Shown piece by piece: positions 1,051-60,026 of a stretch of DNA of 64,000 nt. The first letter of the stretch is position 1. Each line of letters begins with the position of its first letter. A program made the position numbers and the translations under genes. The notes beneath the pieces are model-generated. The model ran no database searches and was not told the DNA's origin. It was given only the letters and a program-made list of their open reading frames with translations. The DNA comes from Flavobacteriales bacterium ALC-1 (GTDB lineage: Bacteria; Bacteroidota; Bacteroidia; Flavobacteriales; Flavobacteriaceae), in contig ABHI01000001.1 of the NCBI GenBank assembly GCA_000171875.1, positions 817,001 through 881,000 on the forward strand, given 5' to 3'.

Positions 1051-2832
1051 ATGCCAACTAAATCCAACTTTTTTAAACGCTTACTCATCTGGAGGTATAA
1101 ACATATCTCCGAAAAAAACTTTGTGTTTTTACTAAGTTTGGTGATTGGCTTATTAGCTGGAATTGTTTCAGTAACGATTAAAAACATCACTTTTGCCATT
1201 CAAGCGGTTTTAGAAAAAGGCATTACTCTTTCTGAAAATAGTATTTATTTTATCTTACCCATTATTGGCATTTTCTTAGTGTATTTATTTGTGAAATATA
1301 TTTCAAAGAAGCCTAATGAGCATGCGATTCCCTCAATACTATATGCGTTATCTAAACGTGATGGAATTATTAGTAAACGTAGTATTTATCTTCCACTAAT
1401 CACAGCCCCATTAACTGTAGGTTTTGGAGGTTCAGTCGGATTGCTAGGGCCAGCAATTGCTTCTGCTTCAGCAGTAAGTTCTAACTTAGGACGGCTACTT
1501 CATATAGATAGAAAAACACGCAGTTTATTAATTGCTTGTGCTTCTGCAGGCGCTATTGCTTCGATTTTTAAATCACCAATCGCAGCTGTTATTTTTGCTA
1601 TAGAAATCTTTAGTTTAGATCTCACATTCGCATCATTATTACCATTATTAATCGCTTCGGTTTCATCAGTAATCACCTCATATTTTTTCTTAGGAGATAG
1701 TGTTCTTTTCGATTTTAATGTGGCAGATAAGTTTGCTATAAAAGACACCTTGTTTTATATCCTTTTAGGAATTGGTACTGGAATTGCGTCTATTTACTTT
1801 TCAAAAATATACTTTGGAATAACCACATTTTTTAATCGTTTTAAATCAGCAAGACACAAACTTATTATTGGTGGTTTAGCTATAGGTGTAATGCTATATT
1901 TCATTCCACCACTCTATGGAGAAGGCTTTGGTTTTATAAATAATTTGATGCTAGGAAATGATATTGAAGCATTGGGTAATACACCATTTGATTCGCATTT
2001 AGATAACATCTGGATTGTCATTGGTCTACTTTTCGGAATTACATTATTTAAAGCTATAGCCATGACGACAACATTTGCCGCAGGTGGAAGTGGTGGGATC
2101 ATTATTCCGACTTTAGTTATGGGAAGTGCTTTAGGAAATGTCGTAGCAAAGGTTATTAATAATTGTGGCTTAGGTTTTTCAGTATCTGAAGCAAACTTTA
2201 CTTTAATTGGTATGGCTGGTCTTATAGCAGGAGTGCTTCATGCTCCATTAACAGCCATATTTTTAATTGCAGAAATTACAGGTGGTTATGAGTTATTTGT
2301 GCCACTAATGATTACGGCTTCTATGTCTTTTATCATAAATAAAAATGGCCTAGACCATACCATTTATACCAAAGAATTAATAGAAAAAGGAGCAATACTC
2401 ACCCAGAACAAGGATAAAAACGTATTGACATTAATGAAATTAGATTCAGTAATTGAACAAAATTTCATTCAACTACATCCCGAAATGACTTTAGGTGAAA
2501 TGCTTAAAAATGGAGTCTCTAAGTCTAATCGAAACCTATTTCCTGTTACTGATGCTGAACAAAATTTTATTGGCATTATTTTACTAGACAACATTCGTTC
2601 GGTGATGTTTGATCAATCACTTTATAATTCTACTTCTGTTGAAACCTTTATGCAAAAACCTCCAGAAATTATATATTATGAAGATGATTCCATGGAAAAA
2701 GTGATGAAGAAATTCCAAACCTCTGGTGCATGGAATCTACCAGTTATAAAGGATAATAAATATTACGGATTTGTTTCTAAATCAAAACTATTAACTGCTT
2801 ATCGGCGCGAATTGATTAATTTTACATCCTAA
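1051..2832 (+). CDS. ClC-family chloride channel/transporter with C-terminal CBS pair
   Basis: A 593-residue integral membrane ClC protein. About ten to twelve hydrophobic segments fill residues 25-440, and two CBS-like repeats follow (about 450-590), a layout common in bacterial ClC proteins. The second selectivity motif is recognisable as GGSGGIIIP, and the N-terminal helix D motif is present as NEHAIPS. The helix F motif, normally G-x-E-x-P with the gating glutamate, reads GGSVGLLGP, placing leucine 132 at the glutamate position. In known ClC proteins loss of this glutamate uncouples proton exchange and gives passive anion flux, so this may be a channel and not an exchanger; that is inference. 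The downstream small membrane gene overlaps its stop by one base. Confidence 0.9.
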   Translation: MPTKSNFFKRLLIWRYKHISEKNFVFLLSLVIGLLAGIVSVTIKNITFAIQAVLEKGITLSENSIYFILPIIGIFLVYLFVKYISKKPNEHAIPSILYALSKRDGIISKRSIYLPLITAPLTVGFGGSVGLLGPAIASASAVSSNLGRLLHIDRKTRSLLIACASAGAIASIFKSPIAAVIFAIEIFSLDLTFASLLPLLIASVSSVITSYFFLGDSVLFDFNVADKFAIKDTLFYILLGIGTGIASIYFSKIYFGITTFFNRFKSARHKLIIGGLAIGVMLYFIPPLYGEGFGFINNLMLGNDIEALGNTPFDSHLDNIWIVIGLLFGITLFKAIAMTTTFAAGGSGGIIIPTLVMGSALGNVVAKVINNCGLGFSVSEANFTLIGMAGLIAGVLHAPLTAIFLIAEITGGYELFVPLMITASMSFIINKNGLDHTIYTKELIEKGAILTQNKDKNVLTLMKLDSVIEQNFIQLHPEMTLGEMLKNGVSKSNRNLFPVTDAEQNFIGIILLDNIRSVMFDQSLYNSTSVETFMQKPPEIIYYEDDSMEKVMKKFQTSGAWNLPVIKDNKYYGFVSKSKLLTAYRRELINFTS

Positions 2833-3077
2833 TGAAACCCATACACATTATCACATTAATAGCGTTTTTAGCTTCAATAGTAAGTATTATCTGTGGATTA
2901 ATATTAGAGGTTGAATATGCCCAAAAACTTATTGGATTTGGAGTTCTTGGTTTATTTTTAATCGTTTTTCCTTTATTCTCATACTACAGATGGAAAGATA
3001 AAGATGTTAAAGATTACATGCTTACCAAAGAGAACTTGGACAAAATGAGAGAAAACCAAAGAGAAAAGAAGATTTAA
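2832..3077 (+). CDS. Small two-helix membrane protein
   Basis: An 81-residue protein with two hydrophobic helices (about residues 5-25 and 32-50) followed by a highly charged tail (KDKDVKDYMLTKENLDKMRENQREKKI). I do not recognise a named family. The start ATG overlaps the stop codon of the ClC gene as TAATG, which implies co-transcription and translational coupling, so it may be an accessory of that transporter. No signal-peptide cleavage site is evident. Confidence 0.75.
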   Translation: MKPIHIITLIAFLASIVSIICGLILEVEYAQKLIGFGVLGLFLIVFPLFSYYRWKDKDVKDYMLTKENLDKMRENQREKKI

Positions 3078-3219
3078 TTTTTTTATTTCTAATGAAATAA
3101 AATTCTTTAATTGCTTTATTAGCAGTGCTTCTAAGCCATAGAACAAGCTATATTTAACTTATTAATTTTCAAATAATTAAAATAAAACGATTTATTAACA
3201 TTAGCGTTGATTTATATTA

Positions 3220-3227
3220 TATCTTTG
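3220..3227 (+). promoter_or_regulatory. -7 promoter box of the cold-shock gene
   Basis: TATCTTTG followed by CAC fits the Bacteroidota -7 consensus TAnnTTTG. It lies 25 bases upstream of the cold-shock ATG, giving a short untranslated leader. No clear -33 TTG at the ideal distance. Confidence 0.7.
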
Positions 3228-3252
3228 CACTTTAATTTTTATTTATATTATA

Positions 3253-3444
3253 ATGACTGGAACAGTTAAATTTTTTAATGATTCAAAAGGATTTGGATTC
3301 ATTACCAACGAAGAAACAGGAAAAGACATCTTCGTACACGTATCAAACCTAAATGGTGTAGAGTTACGCGAAGGCGATAACGTAGAGTACACAGAAGAAG
3401 AAGGAAGAAAAGGAATGGTAGCTGCAAACGTACAGGTACTATAA
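3253..3444 (+). CDS. Cold-shock protein (CspA family)
   Basis: A 63-residue single cold-shock domain protein that binds single-stranded RNA/DNA as an RNA chaperone. RNP1 (KGFGFI, residues 12-17) and RNP2 (DIFVHV, residues 25-30) are both intact, and the start [10 protein letters not shown] is typical of Flavobacteriaceae Csp proteins. Full family length. It is monocistronic: its own -7 box lies just upstream and a strong terminator 20 bases after the stop. Confidence 0.97.
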
Positions 3445-3464
3445 GTATATATCTTACAAGTTGC

Positions 3465-3494
3465 AACGCTCAATCTATGGTTGGGCGTTTTTTT
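3465..3494 (+). terminator. Rho-independent terminator after cold-shock gene
   Basis: Stem AACGCTCAA / TTGGGCGTT (one G-T pair) with a 7-base loop and a seven-T run. It also sits just before the convergent end of the PrcB-like gene. Confidence 0.9.
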
Positions 3495-3498
3495 ATGC

Positions 3499-3969
3499 TT
3501 AATTTTTATGTGTTGAGAAAATTATTGGCAAATCACTTTTAGTAATTTTAACAATATAATACGGTTGTGTCATTACAGATGTTGCCATTCCGCTAGGTGA
3601 TTTACGTATAATATTGACTTCAATATTTTTAGAACTTGGAGTAATATCTAATTTTAAACTGTGACCTCCAGTTGTCTTTACTTTGTCAAAAACAGCAATA
3701 ACAGTGTATTTAGAAAAATCAATATCTGATTCAGAAAAACTATCTGAAACTTTATTAACACTGTTCATTTTCACCATTATATCTTGCCAATCATCTTCAT
3801 TTATAATTACGCTATTTTGCTCTTTAATCCCTTCTTCGCCTGAGCCAAAAAGACTTCCTTTAGCTATAAGAACTATATCCTCTTCTCCCATTTTTGGTTG
3901 ATTGGCGGTTGTTGTTTTACAATTTAAAGCAAACAATAAAATTAAAACTGTCATTACTTTATTCATCAT
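3499..3969 (-). CDS. PrcB-like lipoprotein
   Basis: A 156-residue exported protein. The N-terminus (MTVLILLFALNC) ends in a lipobox-like cysteine at about residue 17, so it is probably a lipoprotein. The C-terminal part resembles the PrcB domain: the TTGGHSLKL strand and a final QPYYIVKI strand, with the AVFDKVKTTGG turn between. PrcB was named as a subunit of a Treponema protease complex; in Bacteroidota the role is not known. It is 13 bases downstream of tadA on the same strand and could be read from the same message. Confidence 0.7.
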   Translation of the reverse strand: MMNKVMTVLILLFALNCKTTTANQPKMGEEDIVLIAKGSLFGSGEEGIKEQNSVIINEDDWQDIMVKMNSVNKVSDSFSESDIDFSKYTVIAVFDKVKTTGGHSLKLDITPSSKNIEVNIIRKSPSGMATSVMTQPYYIVKITKSDLPIIFSTHKN

Positions 3970-58432: not shown

Positions 58433-58501
58433 AGTACAGTTGATTTGTAGTTAGTTATAAAATATAAAACCACAAAAAACATACCAAAAGACCTAAAAAA
58501 C

Positions 58502-58530
58502 AAAAAGCCTCAACATCGTTGAAGCTTTTG
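58502..58530 (-). terminator. Terminator for tRNA-Leu
   Basis: On the minus strand AAAAGCTTCAAC / GTTGAGGCTTTT with loop GAT (one G-T pair), followed by a T-rich run, directly after the tRNA 3' end. Confidence 0.75.
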
Positions 58531-58612
58531 TACTCAAGGTGGGAATCGAACCCACACTTCCGAAGAAACTGGATTTTGAATCCAGCGCGTCTACCAATTC
58601 CGCCACTTGAGC
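58531..58612 (-). tRNA. tRNA-Leu (anticodon CAA)
   Basis: An 82-base class II tRNA. On the minus strand it starts GCTCAAGTGGCGGAATTGG and the acceptor arm closes with CTTGAGT plus discriminator A. The anticodon stem CTGGA/TCCAG frames the loop TTCAAAA, so the anticodon is CAA (reads UUG). A variable arm TTTCTTCGGAA and T-arm GTGGGTTCGATTCCCAC are recognisable. CCA is not encoded. An almost identical 5' fragment lies 330 bases away. Confidence 0.95.
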
Positions 58613-58622
58613 TTAAGTAGTA

Positions 58623-58871
58623 TTATTTTTTATCTCTAATTAATCTTAACTTTTCTTTTCCTATTCCAGATTTCCAATATTTTTCTCTTTCTCTAGCTTC
58701 ACTTCTTTCAACATCTAAAACCTCTGTAAATATCAATTTGAAAGGTCGATATGGTCTAGTCGTTTTTTCTCTACCAGATTGATGTCTAGCAACTCTATTA
58801 TCAATATTTTCAGTCATTCCAACATAAATATAATTCCTGTTAATACTTGATAAAGCGTAAATATAAAACAT
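58623..58871 (-). CDS. Small GIY-YIG nuclease-family protein
   Basis: An 82-residue single-domain GIY-YIG protein (UvrC/homing-endonuclease fold): MFYIYALSS, YIYVGMTENIDNRVARHQSG with the catalytic arginine, and the glutamate in SEAREREKYWKSG. Stand-alone domains like this occur in many copies in flavobacterial genomes and may be mobile. It ends 11 bases from the 5' end of tRNA-Leu and is bounded on its other side by a partial copy of that tRNA, so it appears to have arrived together with a target duplication. Confidence 0.88.
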   Translation of the reverse strand: MFYIYALSSINRNYIYVGMTENIDNRVARHQSGREKTTRPYRPFKLIFTEVLDVERSEAREREKYWKSGIGKEKLRLIRDKK

Positions 58872-58893
58872 AATCTAAAGAGCTAATGTCAAA

Positions 58894-58942
58894 AGCGCGC
58901 CTGCCTGTCGGCAGACAGGTCTACCAATTCCGCCACTTGAGC
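58894..58942 (-). repeat. Partial tRNA-Leu copy interrupted by a 20-bp palindrome
   Basis: AGCGCG (58894-58899) and a 23-base TCTACC...GAGC piece (58920-58942) together reproduce bases 58584-58612 of tRNA-Leu exactly, but are split by the palindrome CCTGCCTGTCGGCAGACAGG at 58900-58919. The copy is not a functional tRNA: the anticodon arm and 3' half are missing. It forms the outer boundary of the GIY-YIG insertion. Confidence 0.85.
58900..58919. repeat. 20-bp palindromic insertion
   Basis: CCTGCCTGTCGGCAGACAGG forms a stem CCTGTC/GACAGG around GGCA. It is GC-rich in an AT-rich region and sits exactly between two parts of the tRNA copy. Palindromes of this sort occur repeatedly in flavobacterial genomes to my recollection; only this copy was seen here. 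Confidence 0.6.
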
Positions 58943-59029
58943 AATTTTGGACAGCAAAAATAGAAAATATTTTTCGGCAATCAATTAAAAATAGTGGGTT
59001 TTATAATTTTTTGAAGCAAAATAATTTTC

Positions 59030-59037
59030 TAAATTTG
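59030..59037 (+). promoter_or_regulatory. -7 box of prs
   Basis: TAAATTTG, a perfect TAnnTTTG, 48 bases before the prs ATG, with TTG at 59011 as possible -33. Confidence 0.6.
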
Positions 59038-59084
59038 GGCTTTAATTTCAACTAATCAACAACCCTTTAAATTACTGATAACAA

Positions 59085-60026
59085 ATGCCATACAAAACTA
59101 GAGAAGCCAAGATTTTTACATGTGGCCAAAGTCAACACTTAGCAGAGCAAATTGCAGCTGCTTACGGAGTTAAATTAGGTAATGTTATCACATCAACTTA
59201 TAGTGATGGTGAGTTTCAACCATCATACGAAGAATCTATTCGTGGAACTCGTATTTTTATTATCGGTTCTACCAATCCAGGTCCTGAAAATTTAATGGAA
59301 ATGCTGTTAATGATTGATGCTGCTAAGCGTGCGTCTGCAAGGCATATTACGGCAGTAATGCCTTATTTTGGATGGGCAAGACAAGATCGTAAAGACAAAC
59401 CAAGAGTACCTATCGCAGCTAAATTAGTAGCAAAAATGCTAGAAGCGGCAGGTGCAACACGTATTATTACTATGGATTTGCATGCAGATCAAATTCAAGG
59501 ATTTTTTGAAAAACCAGTAGACCACTTATTTGCTTCAACTATCTTTTTACCATACTTACAAAGTTTAAACCTAGACGATTTAACTATTGCCTCTCCAGAT
59601 ATGGGAGGTTCTAAACGTGCTTATGCTTATTCTAAAGCTTTAAAAAGTGATGTCGTTATTTGTTATAAGCAACGTGCTAAAGCAAATGTAATTTCGCATA
59701 TGGAACTCATTGGCGATGTTACAGGTAAAAACGTAGTACTTGTAGATGACATGGTCGATACAGCTGGTACATTAACTAAAGCTGCTGATTTAATGATGGA
59801 GCGTGGTGCAAAAAGTGTAAGAGCTATTTGTACGCATCCTATTTTATCTGGTAGTGCTTATGAACGACTTGAAGCTTCTAAACTAGAGGAATTAATAGTA
59901 ACGGATTCAATCCCTGTAAAACAAGAAAGTAAGAAACTTAGAGTTTTAAGCTGTGCAAATTTATTTGCTGAAGTGATGCACAATGTACATCATAATGAGT
60001 CTATTAGTAACAAATTTATAATGTAA
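59085..60026 (+). CDS. prs: Ribose-phosphate pyrophosphokinase
   Basis: Makes PRPP from ribose 5-phosphate and ATP for purine, pyrimidine, His, Trp and NAD synthesis. The 313-residue protein has FTCGQSQHLAEQIAAAYG, the ATP-loop RQDRKDKPRVPIAAKLVAKML, the metal-binding histidine in TMDLHADQIQGFF and the PRPP loop VVLVDDMVDTAGTL. Class I Prs. Precedes rplY by 214 bases with its own promoter. Confidence 0.97.
   Translation: MPYKTREAKIFTCGQSQHLAEQIAAAYGVKLGNVITSTYSDGEFQPSYEESIRGTRIFIIGSTNPGPENLMEMLLMIDAAKRASARHITAVMPYFGWARQDRKDKPRVPIAAKLVAKMLEAAGATRIITMDLHADQIQGFFEKPVDHLFASTIFLPYLQSLNLDDLTIASPDMGGSKRAYAYSKALKSDVVICYKQRAKANVISHMELIGDVTGKNVVLVDDMVDTAGTLTKAADLMMERGAKSVRAICTHPILSGSAYERLEASKLEELIVTDSIPVKQESKKLRVLSCANLFAEVMHNVHHNESISNKFIM

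Follow-up and report, generated by a model that had tools for sequence, protein, structure and literature searches.

Integrative elements insert at tRNA genes and leave behind an intact tRNA together with a tRNA fragment. In phages, the part of the literature source used here describes SegB, encoded by a GIY-YIG gene beside tRNA genes and reported to cut in tRNA-containing DNA, as well as tandem segB/tRNA-Tyr arrays in phage T6 (PMC13096335). Hairpin elements of sponge and fungal mitochondria are dispersed intergenically and inside rRNA genes, and their mobility is suspected (PMC2800124, in excerpt). The hairpin described below differs from these in that they reside in organelle DNA and in that the same excerpt mentions no link to a nuclease (PMC2800124).

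The locus analyzed here lies in a 64,000-nt stretch (the window; contig ABHI01000001.1, positions 817,001 to 881,000) of the genome of Flavobacteriales bacterium ALC-1. It resembles SegB of phages T4 and T6, as far as the excerpted description goes (PMC13096335), in its free-standing GIY-YIG gene beside tRNAs and in the tandem nuclease-tRNA repeats of its relatives. Unlike SegB, the element resides in bacterial chromosomes, encodes a bare catalytic domain, and is accompanied by a tRNA relict (i.e., a partial tRNA copy) that is split by a GC-rich hairpin. Sequence kinship to SegB was judged by searches of phage records and PHROGs, which gave no match; we suggest that the element may work like SegB, and we do not class it as SegB. 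With integrative elements, the locus shares the tRNA site and the intact tRNA plus fragment, but the unit carries no integrase or recombinase, and its relict is hairpin-split, whereas integrative-type scars at the same tRNA are unbroken. Among the matches listed from titles and abstracts of the open-licence literature, we found no description of a tRNA-tied nuclease with a hairpin-split relict.

A preliminary description of the window had noted that bases 1 to 29 of the tRNA-Leu(CAA) 5' part recur at 58894 to 58942, split by a 20-mer, with the GIY-YIG gene between the two copies, and this arrangement was confirmed (Table 1). The order on the minus strand is TATTTTTG, relict 1 to 23, hairpin, relict 24 to 29, GIY-YIG gene, 10 nt, and intact tRNA-Leu(CAA). 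The motif TATTTTTG fits what we take to be the Bacteroidota promoter motif (TAnnTTTG), and prs presumably encodes ribose-phosphate pyrophosphokinase. Relict 1 to 23 occupies the site of the original tRNA 5' end, i.e., the position beside prs at which the tRNA starts in the empty sites of congeners.

Table 1. Features of the tRNA-Leu(CAA) locus (positions are those of the window)
Feature	Position	Strand	Basis or remark
tRNA-Leu(CAA), intact	58530-58612 (ARAGORN); 58531-58612 (Rfam RF00005)	minus	ARAGORN, Rfam, own-genome search
GIY-YIG nuclease ORF, 82 aa	58623-58871	minus	ORF list; Pfam PF01541, E 6.1e-16
Relict of tRNA-Leu bases 24-29	58894-58899	minus	tRNA homology stops after base 29
Hairpin, 20 nt, CCTGCCTGTCGGCAGACAGG	58900-58919	not assigned	splits relict at tRNA 21/22
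Relict of tRNA-Leu bases 1-23 (acceptor 5' strand and D arm)	58920-58942	minus	sequence repeat
Putative promoter, TATTTTTG	58955-58962	minus	upstream of relict; similar sequence precedes tRNA in empty sites
prs, neighbor outside the element	59085-60026	plus	fixes orthologous locus

The inserted 20-mer lies at the D-loop/D-stem boundary of the tRNA (21/22) and, read on the minus strand, comprises a 6-bp stem (CCTGTC/GACAGG), a 4-nt loop, and a 4-nt tail. It had been described as a 20-bp palindrome; the insert is present, but the symmetry is imperfect, as 4 of the 20 positions of CCTGCCTGTCGGCAGACAGG differ from its own reverse complement, and it is the minus-strand RNA form that folds as a hairpin. 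The 20-mer is single-copy within the window at up to 3 mismatches (shuffles, 0) and in the entire genome at up to 2 mismatches. Given this uniqueness, the null result of the shuffles, and the occurrence of the same arrangement in other genera, the arrangement in the window is not due to chance. By similarity search, the intact tRNA is the sole tRNA-Leu(CAA) of the genome; the other tRNA-Leu matches are the TAA and GAG isoacceptors and, as the fourth, the relict itself. The nuclease stop codon lies 10 nt ahead of the tRNA 5' end, and this short gap implies that the tRNA would either share the nuclease transcript or start inside the nuclease gene. No other ORF of at least 50 aa was found between the two tRNA copies. 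A scan of positions 58450 to 59100 against Rfam returned the tRNA as the sole match, and, the intact tRNA being uninterrupted, an intron in the tRNA was rejected. A second small GIY-YIG gene of this genome (L002, G000:C8:35642-35857) has direct repeats of up to 38 nt on both flanks, which contain a hairpin repeat (TCGATACA-hairpin-CACTCGA); L075 and L081 appear similar by eye.

The 82-aa protein is a member of the GIY-YIG superfamily and consists of the catalytic domain only, with no added DNA-binding domain. Across 55 sequences, Y5, Y16, G18, and E63 are invariant and R26 is near-invariant; some of these are presumably catalytic residues. In a fold search with an AlphaFold2 model (pLDDT, 96), the closest solved folds were small GIY-YIG proteins, with UPF0213 BH0048 first (E 5.5e-4) and Slx1 and the I-TevI catalytic domain weaker (E of approximately 0.01 to 0.04). 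Slx1-Slx4 processes branched DNA, according to the title of a structure entry; unlike Slx1 and UPF0213 proteins, the protein described here is linked to tRNA genes. At E 0.001, no family in NCBIfam, PHROGs, or PADLOC-DB matched the protein (anti-phage defense, 0 PADLOC-DB families), and a tblastn search of 50,697 phage records at E 1e-5 gave no match. The dN/dS ratios of the nuclease gene (0.05 to 0.37 over ten pairs; 0.05 to 0.18 for the window gene versus five relatives) indicate that it is under purifying selection.

The genus has a conserved locus with tRNA-Leu(CAA) next to prs. We read it in 59 of 60 genomes (G193 was left out), and prs was present in 56 of the 59 stretches (absent from L252, L277, and L278). 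A single tRNA stands alone at 53 of the 59 loci (i.e., empty sites), while the GIY-YIG gene, the relict, and the hairpin occur together at three (the window, L037, and L038). L037 and L038, assigned to the same genus by genome search, read the same as the named Winogradskyella MAG loci L096 and L102, which makes Winogradskyella the probable genus. Neither the nuclease nor the hairpin was found at the remaining 56 loci. The empty sites support the proposal that a nuclease gene entered the tRNA locus and that an intact tRNA plus a partial copy resulted, and a search for nuclease-free strains that keep the hairpin-split fragment, which would have spoken against the link between the two, gave 0 of 56 loci with a hairpin.

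Three genus loci (L049, L254, and L276) have neither hairpin nor nuclease but carry a relict, behind which stands a different tRNA-Leu(CAA) allele. Together with L128 and L145, in which such an unbroken tRNA scar adjoins a nuclease unit, they make up five loci with an unbroken relict of approximately 43 to 46 nt followed by another tRNA-Leu(CAA) allele. A ParB-domain gene follows the scar in L049 (2373-3380); in L145, a gene 94% identical to it (2764-3771) comes after a tRNA allele of this kind. We infer that the unbroken relicts of L049, L254, and L276 are scars of an integrative element, and the foreign tRNA of L128 and L145 is better explained by such an element. These scars serve as a control, as they involve the same tRNA and the same kind of relict and contain no hairpin. 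A reading of five loci in which the intact tRNA differs as tRNA swaps made by the nuclease was revised, since L128 and L145 have a second, unbroken scar and the acceptor stem in L123 differs by one base only.

The locus in the window is one case of a Bacteroidota-wide pattern, much wider than could be seen from its sequence in the preliminary description. Eight tRNA-linked proteins served as queries against named bacterial and archaeal genomes, and the best 80 of 266 loci were kept. A tRNA adjoins the nuclease gene in 74 of these 80, always on the same strand, a ratio that describes the tRNA-linked clade and not all small GIY-YIG genes, as the loci were picked by similarity to tRNA-linked queries. 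The 74 neighbors comprise 64 tRNA-Leu(CAA) and ten tRNA-Leu(GAG, CAG, TAA) or tRNA-Ser genes. For PF01541 loci in general, a tRNA was present in the stretch read in 4 of 30 cases (L068, L081, L082, and L094), on the opposite strand in L081. With a 55-sequence profile, 87 of the 296 genomes searched in the phylum gave matches (E of 1e-12 or lower). Of the 30 best profile loci, 28 (window included) show a tRNA on the same strand next to the gene or to its array, with tRNA-Arg and tRNA-Cys as additional neighbors; in L224 and L230, the tRNA adjoins the first copy of a tandem array and not the matched copy. The two locus sets partly overlap (L216 is the window, and L217 is from the genome of L032). 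In the 74 and the 28 loci alike, the nuclease gene stands beside an intact tRNA, its presumed target, and in the window, where the tRNA is the sole Rfam match in 58450 to 59100, it is free-standing, outside any intron or intein.

Two orders occur: 5' relict-nuclease-tRNA, with the hairpin mostly at tRNA 9/10 or 21/22, and tRNA-nuclease-3' relict, with the hairpin mostly at or near the T-stem/T-loop boundary. Nuclease-tRNA units are single or form near-identical tandem arrays (93 to 100% identity between copies). Beyond the intact tRNA, 11 of 98 loci carry an extra relict, which in three cases is weak or unclear (L112, L153, and L239). No relatives were found in plasmid, phage, or viral-contig collections, and a phage or plasmid vehicle was rejected on this ground. 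Every one of the 149 Flavobacteriaceae genomes searched has at least one GIY-YIG match, with up to 12 per genome (UvrC-type genes counted). In L094 (1456-1880), a tRNA-Ser relict beside the GIY-YIG gene is split by a tandem hairpin array and a second, different hairpin. In L241, a gene related to the GIY-YIG gene is located between gene pieces that we take to be recombinase-like, with an inverted repeat at the ends and no tRNA.

We aligned each relict to its own intact tRNA in 98 of 110 loci (80 named and 30 profile loci). The other 12 comprise two with too little flank (L168 and L237) and ten in which no tRNA lay on the same strand within the distance limit; hairpin-bearing relicts are seen by eye in several of the ten, and one is the tRNA-free L241. 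An insert of at least 10 nt was found in 93 of the 98 aligned loci. Relicts outscored every reversed-flank control in 91 loci, 87 of which have such an insert (the exceptions in the alignment being L128, L145, L233, and L236), and the seven relicts below control were excluded from the helix-end count. Exact helix ends of the cloverleaf hold 97 of 125 inserts (null mean, 44; maximum, 61 in 2000), a few of which are alignment joins that were kept in the count (e.g., L097, L114, L120, and L226). Counted per distinct tRNA and position, helix ends hold 30 of 50 (null mean, 16; maximum, 27 in 5000). Of 124 inserts, 116 fold at -3 kcal/mol or better, and 96 are more stable than 95% of their own shuffles, while 28 are not. 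The main positions are 9/10, 21/22, and 53/54, and tRNA-Arg(TCG) has an insert at 31/32 (L010, L029, and L202; by eye). At tRNA-Leu 21/22, 32 of 50 inserts are the exact 20-mer of the window; at 9/10, 14 different sequences were found in 17 cases.

Conservation of the hairpin was examined in 40 loci with a 20-nt insert at 21/22, selected with a pattern in which the insert is exactly 20 nt long and its first four bases are restricted. In 710 locus pairs whose nuclease genes are saturated at silent sites (pS of at least 0.6), the hairpins are 97% identical, and exactly so in 63% of the pairs, while the 30 nt upstream are 31% identical and the 12 nt before the start codon are 40% identical. Only the hairpin column of this comparison was used, as hairpins at 9/10 disturb the relict-identity column and the acceptor comparison. 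The 97% identity despite silent-site saturation of the nuclease argues that the hairpin of the window is a maintained part of the element and not a stray repeat. The suggestion that the palindrome is a second, independent mobile repeat was not supported at this locus: the hairpin at 21/22 is conserved across genera and behaves as part of the element. As the window's genome holds a single copy of the 20-mer, its conservation there cannot be due to gene conversion from another site in that genome. A conserved pairing of the full 20-nt palindrome was rejected, since no pair changed on both sides and shuffles were not exceeded.

We consider it somewhat better than an even bet that the unit is a free-standing nuclease element akin to SegB that inserts copies of itself into tRNA genes, with both its movement and the role of the hairpin inferred. 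The nuclease would cut an uninterrupted copy of the tRNA gene, recombination repair would copy both the nuclease gene and a working tRNA into the cut locus, and the resident half-tRNA would remain as a relict. A homing-like cycle of this kind appears most likely because the tandem units are 93 to 100% identical and because SegB, in the portion of the source cited, provides a precedent (PMC13096335). Less eroded relicts run past the hairpin to base 45 or 46 (L108 and L124), i.e., into the anticodon arm, or begin at base 14 to 28. The original break was therefore probably in or near that arm and not at the hairpin, and the hairpin as the cut site of the nuclease is disfavored. Transcribed as one unit with an essential tRNA, the nuclease would also be hard to lose.

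Counting for this homing-like reading are the same-strand tRNA neighbors, the frequency of inserts in the relicts, their placement at helix ends and their stable folds, the empty versus filled loci of the genus, the conserved hairpin, the purifying selection on the nuclease, the outcome of the fold search, and the near-identical tandem copies, as well as the acceptor stems that differ between intact tRNA and relict in L102, L114, and L169. Several observations count against it. The intact tRNA beside the nuclease carries the same uninterrupted sequence, and yet the donor is uncut; the bare catalytic domain has no obvious part that would read a long target; and the plasmid, phage, and viral-contig collections gave no relative as a carrier between cells. 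The patchy presence of the unit could also be explained by loss. Also counted against it are five hairpin-split tRNA fragments with no GIY-YIG gene detected within 1.5 kb on each side (L016, L031, and L033) or approximately 250 bp on each side (L191 and L192), and the many non-tRNA sites of the 20-mer. The five fragments derive from tRNA-Ile, tRNA-Thr, and, by eye, Val- and Asn-like tRNAs and lie a short spacer away from an intact tRNA; they are possibly stripped-down forms.

Within the homing-like reading, the hairpin is a component of the relict that is maintained, and the role that we tentatively prefer, at rather less than even confidence, is that of keeping the relict dead. By breaking the relict at helix ends, the hairpin would prevent re-cutting, recombination with the intact copy, and folding of the half-tRNA. 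Roles at the RNA level or guided by the enzyme would be alternatives.

In an alternative that we regard as unlikely, the hairpin itself is mobile, i.e., an element of approximately 20 nt that enters the ends or loops of folded nucleic acid without target duplication, with a Slx1-like GIY-YIG nuclease opening the sites. In its favor, 36 of the 149 Flavobacteriaceae genomes contain dispersed members of the 20-mer family (up to 24 copies), and none contains the reversed control pattern. By eye, copies lie in tRNA fragments (in relicts at 9/10, 21/22, and 31/32), in the middle of hairpin repeats, inside themselves, or in simple repeats, and double-length inserts occur at single sites in L141, L158, and L162. 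In L176, L182, L179, L181, L184, and L213 to L215, the 20-mer was seen by eye in the middle of a CTTCGACAAG/CTCAG repeat, in the middle of a CTGAAACAAG/TTCAG repeat, or inside another 20-mer. Genomes with the 20-mer also hold more GIY-YIG genes (mean, 7.0 versus 4.4 without; p 3e-6, and p 1e-4 among genomes of 2.5 to 4.7 Mb). Apart from this alternative, the proximity of the palindrome to GIY-YIG genes, the lack of which would have spoken against the link proposed in the preliminary description, does occur, at 8 of the 74 sites read (within 300 bp), where we estimate a chance of approximately 0.1% per site from about five genes per 3.5-Mb genome. Against the mobility of the hairpin, the remaining 66 sites have no GIY-YIG gene detected within that distance, 40 of the fetched stretches extending only approximately 250 bp per side. 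The hairpin at tRNA-Leu 21/22 is nearly unchanged across genera, unlike a free-moving repeat, and hairpins in the wider phylum often differ in sequence and length. Stems formed by the flanks of the 20-mer gave a weak test (at least 5 bp at 5 of 74 sites, permuted mean 1.9 and maximum 6; at least 6 bp at 4 of 74 sites, permuted mean 0.8 and maximum 4), and the placement of dispersed palindromes within other stems is claimed by eye for the named sites only and not as a rule. The proposed link between palindrome and GIY-YIG gene holds at the locus in the window but is not absolute, given the five fragments without a GIY-YIG gene and the non-tRNA sites. With REP/RAYT systems, these repeats have in common that they are short dispersed palindromes. 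Y1 transposase genes are unassociated with the palindrome (16 of 35 palindrome-bearing versus 16 of 35 palindrome-free genomes; among higher-copy genomes, not found in G106, G112, G120, G126, and G147 and found in G069, G074, G094, and G146), and RAYT/REP was rejected both as the mover and as a class for the element.

Slightly more doubtful still is a home-and-rescue drive, in which the nuclease would destroy resident tRNA genes, bring its own working tRNA, and act on the folded strand of the tRNA gene so as to add hairpins at cloverleaf helix ends; such a drive could also spread the short hairpin repeats of many Bacteroidota genomes. An RNA-level unit appears improbable. The relict and hairpin would here act as a folded leader or tail of the nuclease-tRNA transcript and serve in its protection, processing, or regulation, in line with the close, same-strand nuclease and tRNA, the conserved hairpin sequence, insert positions that leave the tRNA stems able to pair, and the strong hairpin in the folded leader of the window. 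However, the relict precedes the nuclease in some loci and follows it in others, so that a single leader role cannot fit both, and a change on both sides was seen at one base pair only, in the 16-nt hairpin (none in the 20-nt palindrome, shuffles not exceeded). That an integrative element left the tRNA half as an ordinary attachment-site scar, and that the hairpin was inserted later at random, is very improbable: unbroken scars do occur at the same tRNA in five loci, with the ParB-domain gene beyond in L049 and L145, but these scars are hairpin-free while 87 of 91 nuclease-linked relicts have an insert, the hairpin is conserved despite silent-site saturation, and the unit lacks a recombinase gene.

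The homing-like reading thus remains the one that we favor. The pattern points to a little-noticed mobile gene family living on tRNA genes, in which one clade of small GIY-YIG genes is tied to tRNA genes and has a conserved non-coding partner. It suggests, as a testable idea, how selfish nucleases can persist at essential tRNA genes, and it may help to explain the dispersed hairpins of Flavobacteriaceae genomes, which have so far lacked an explanation.
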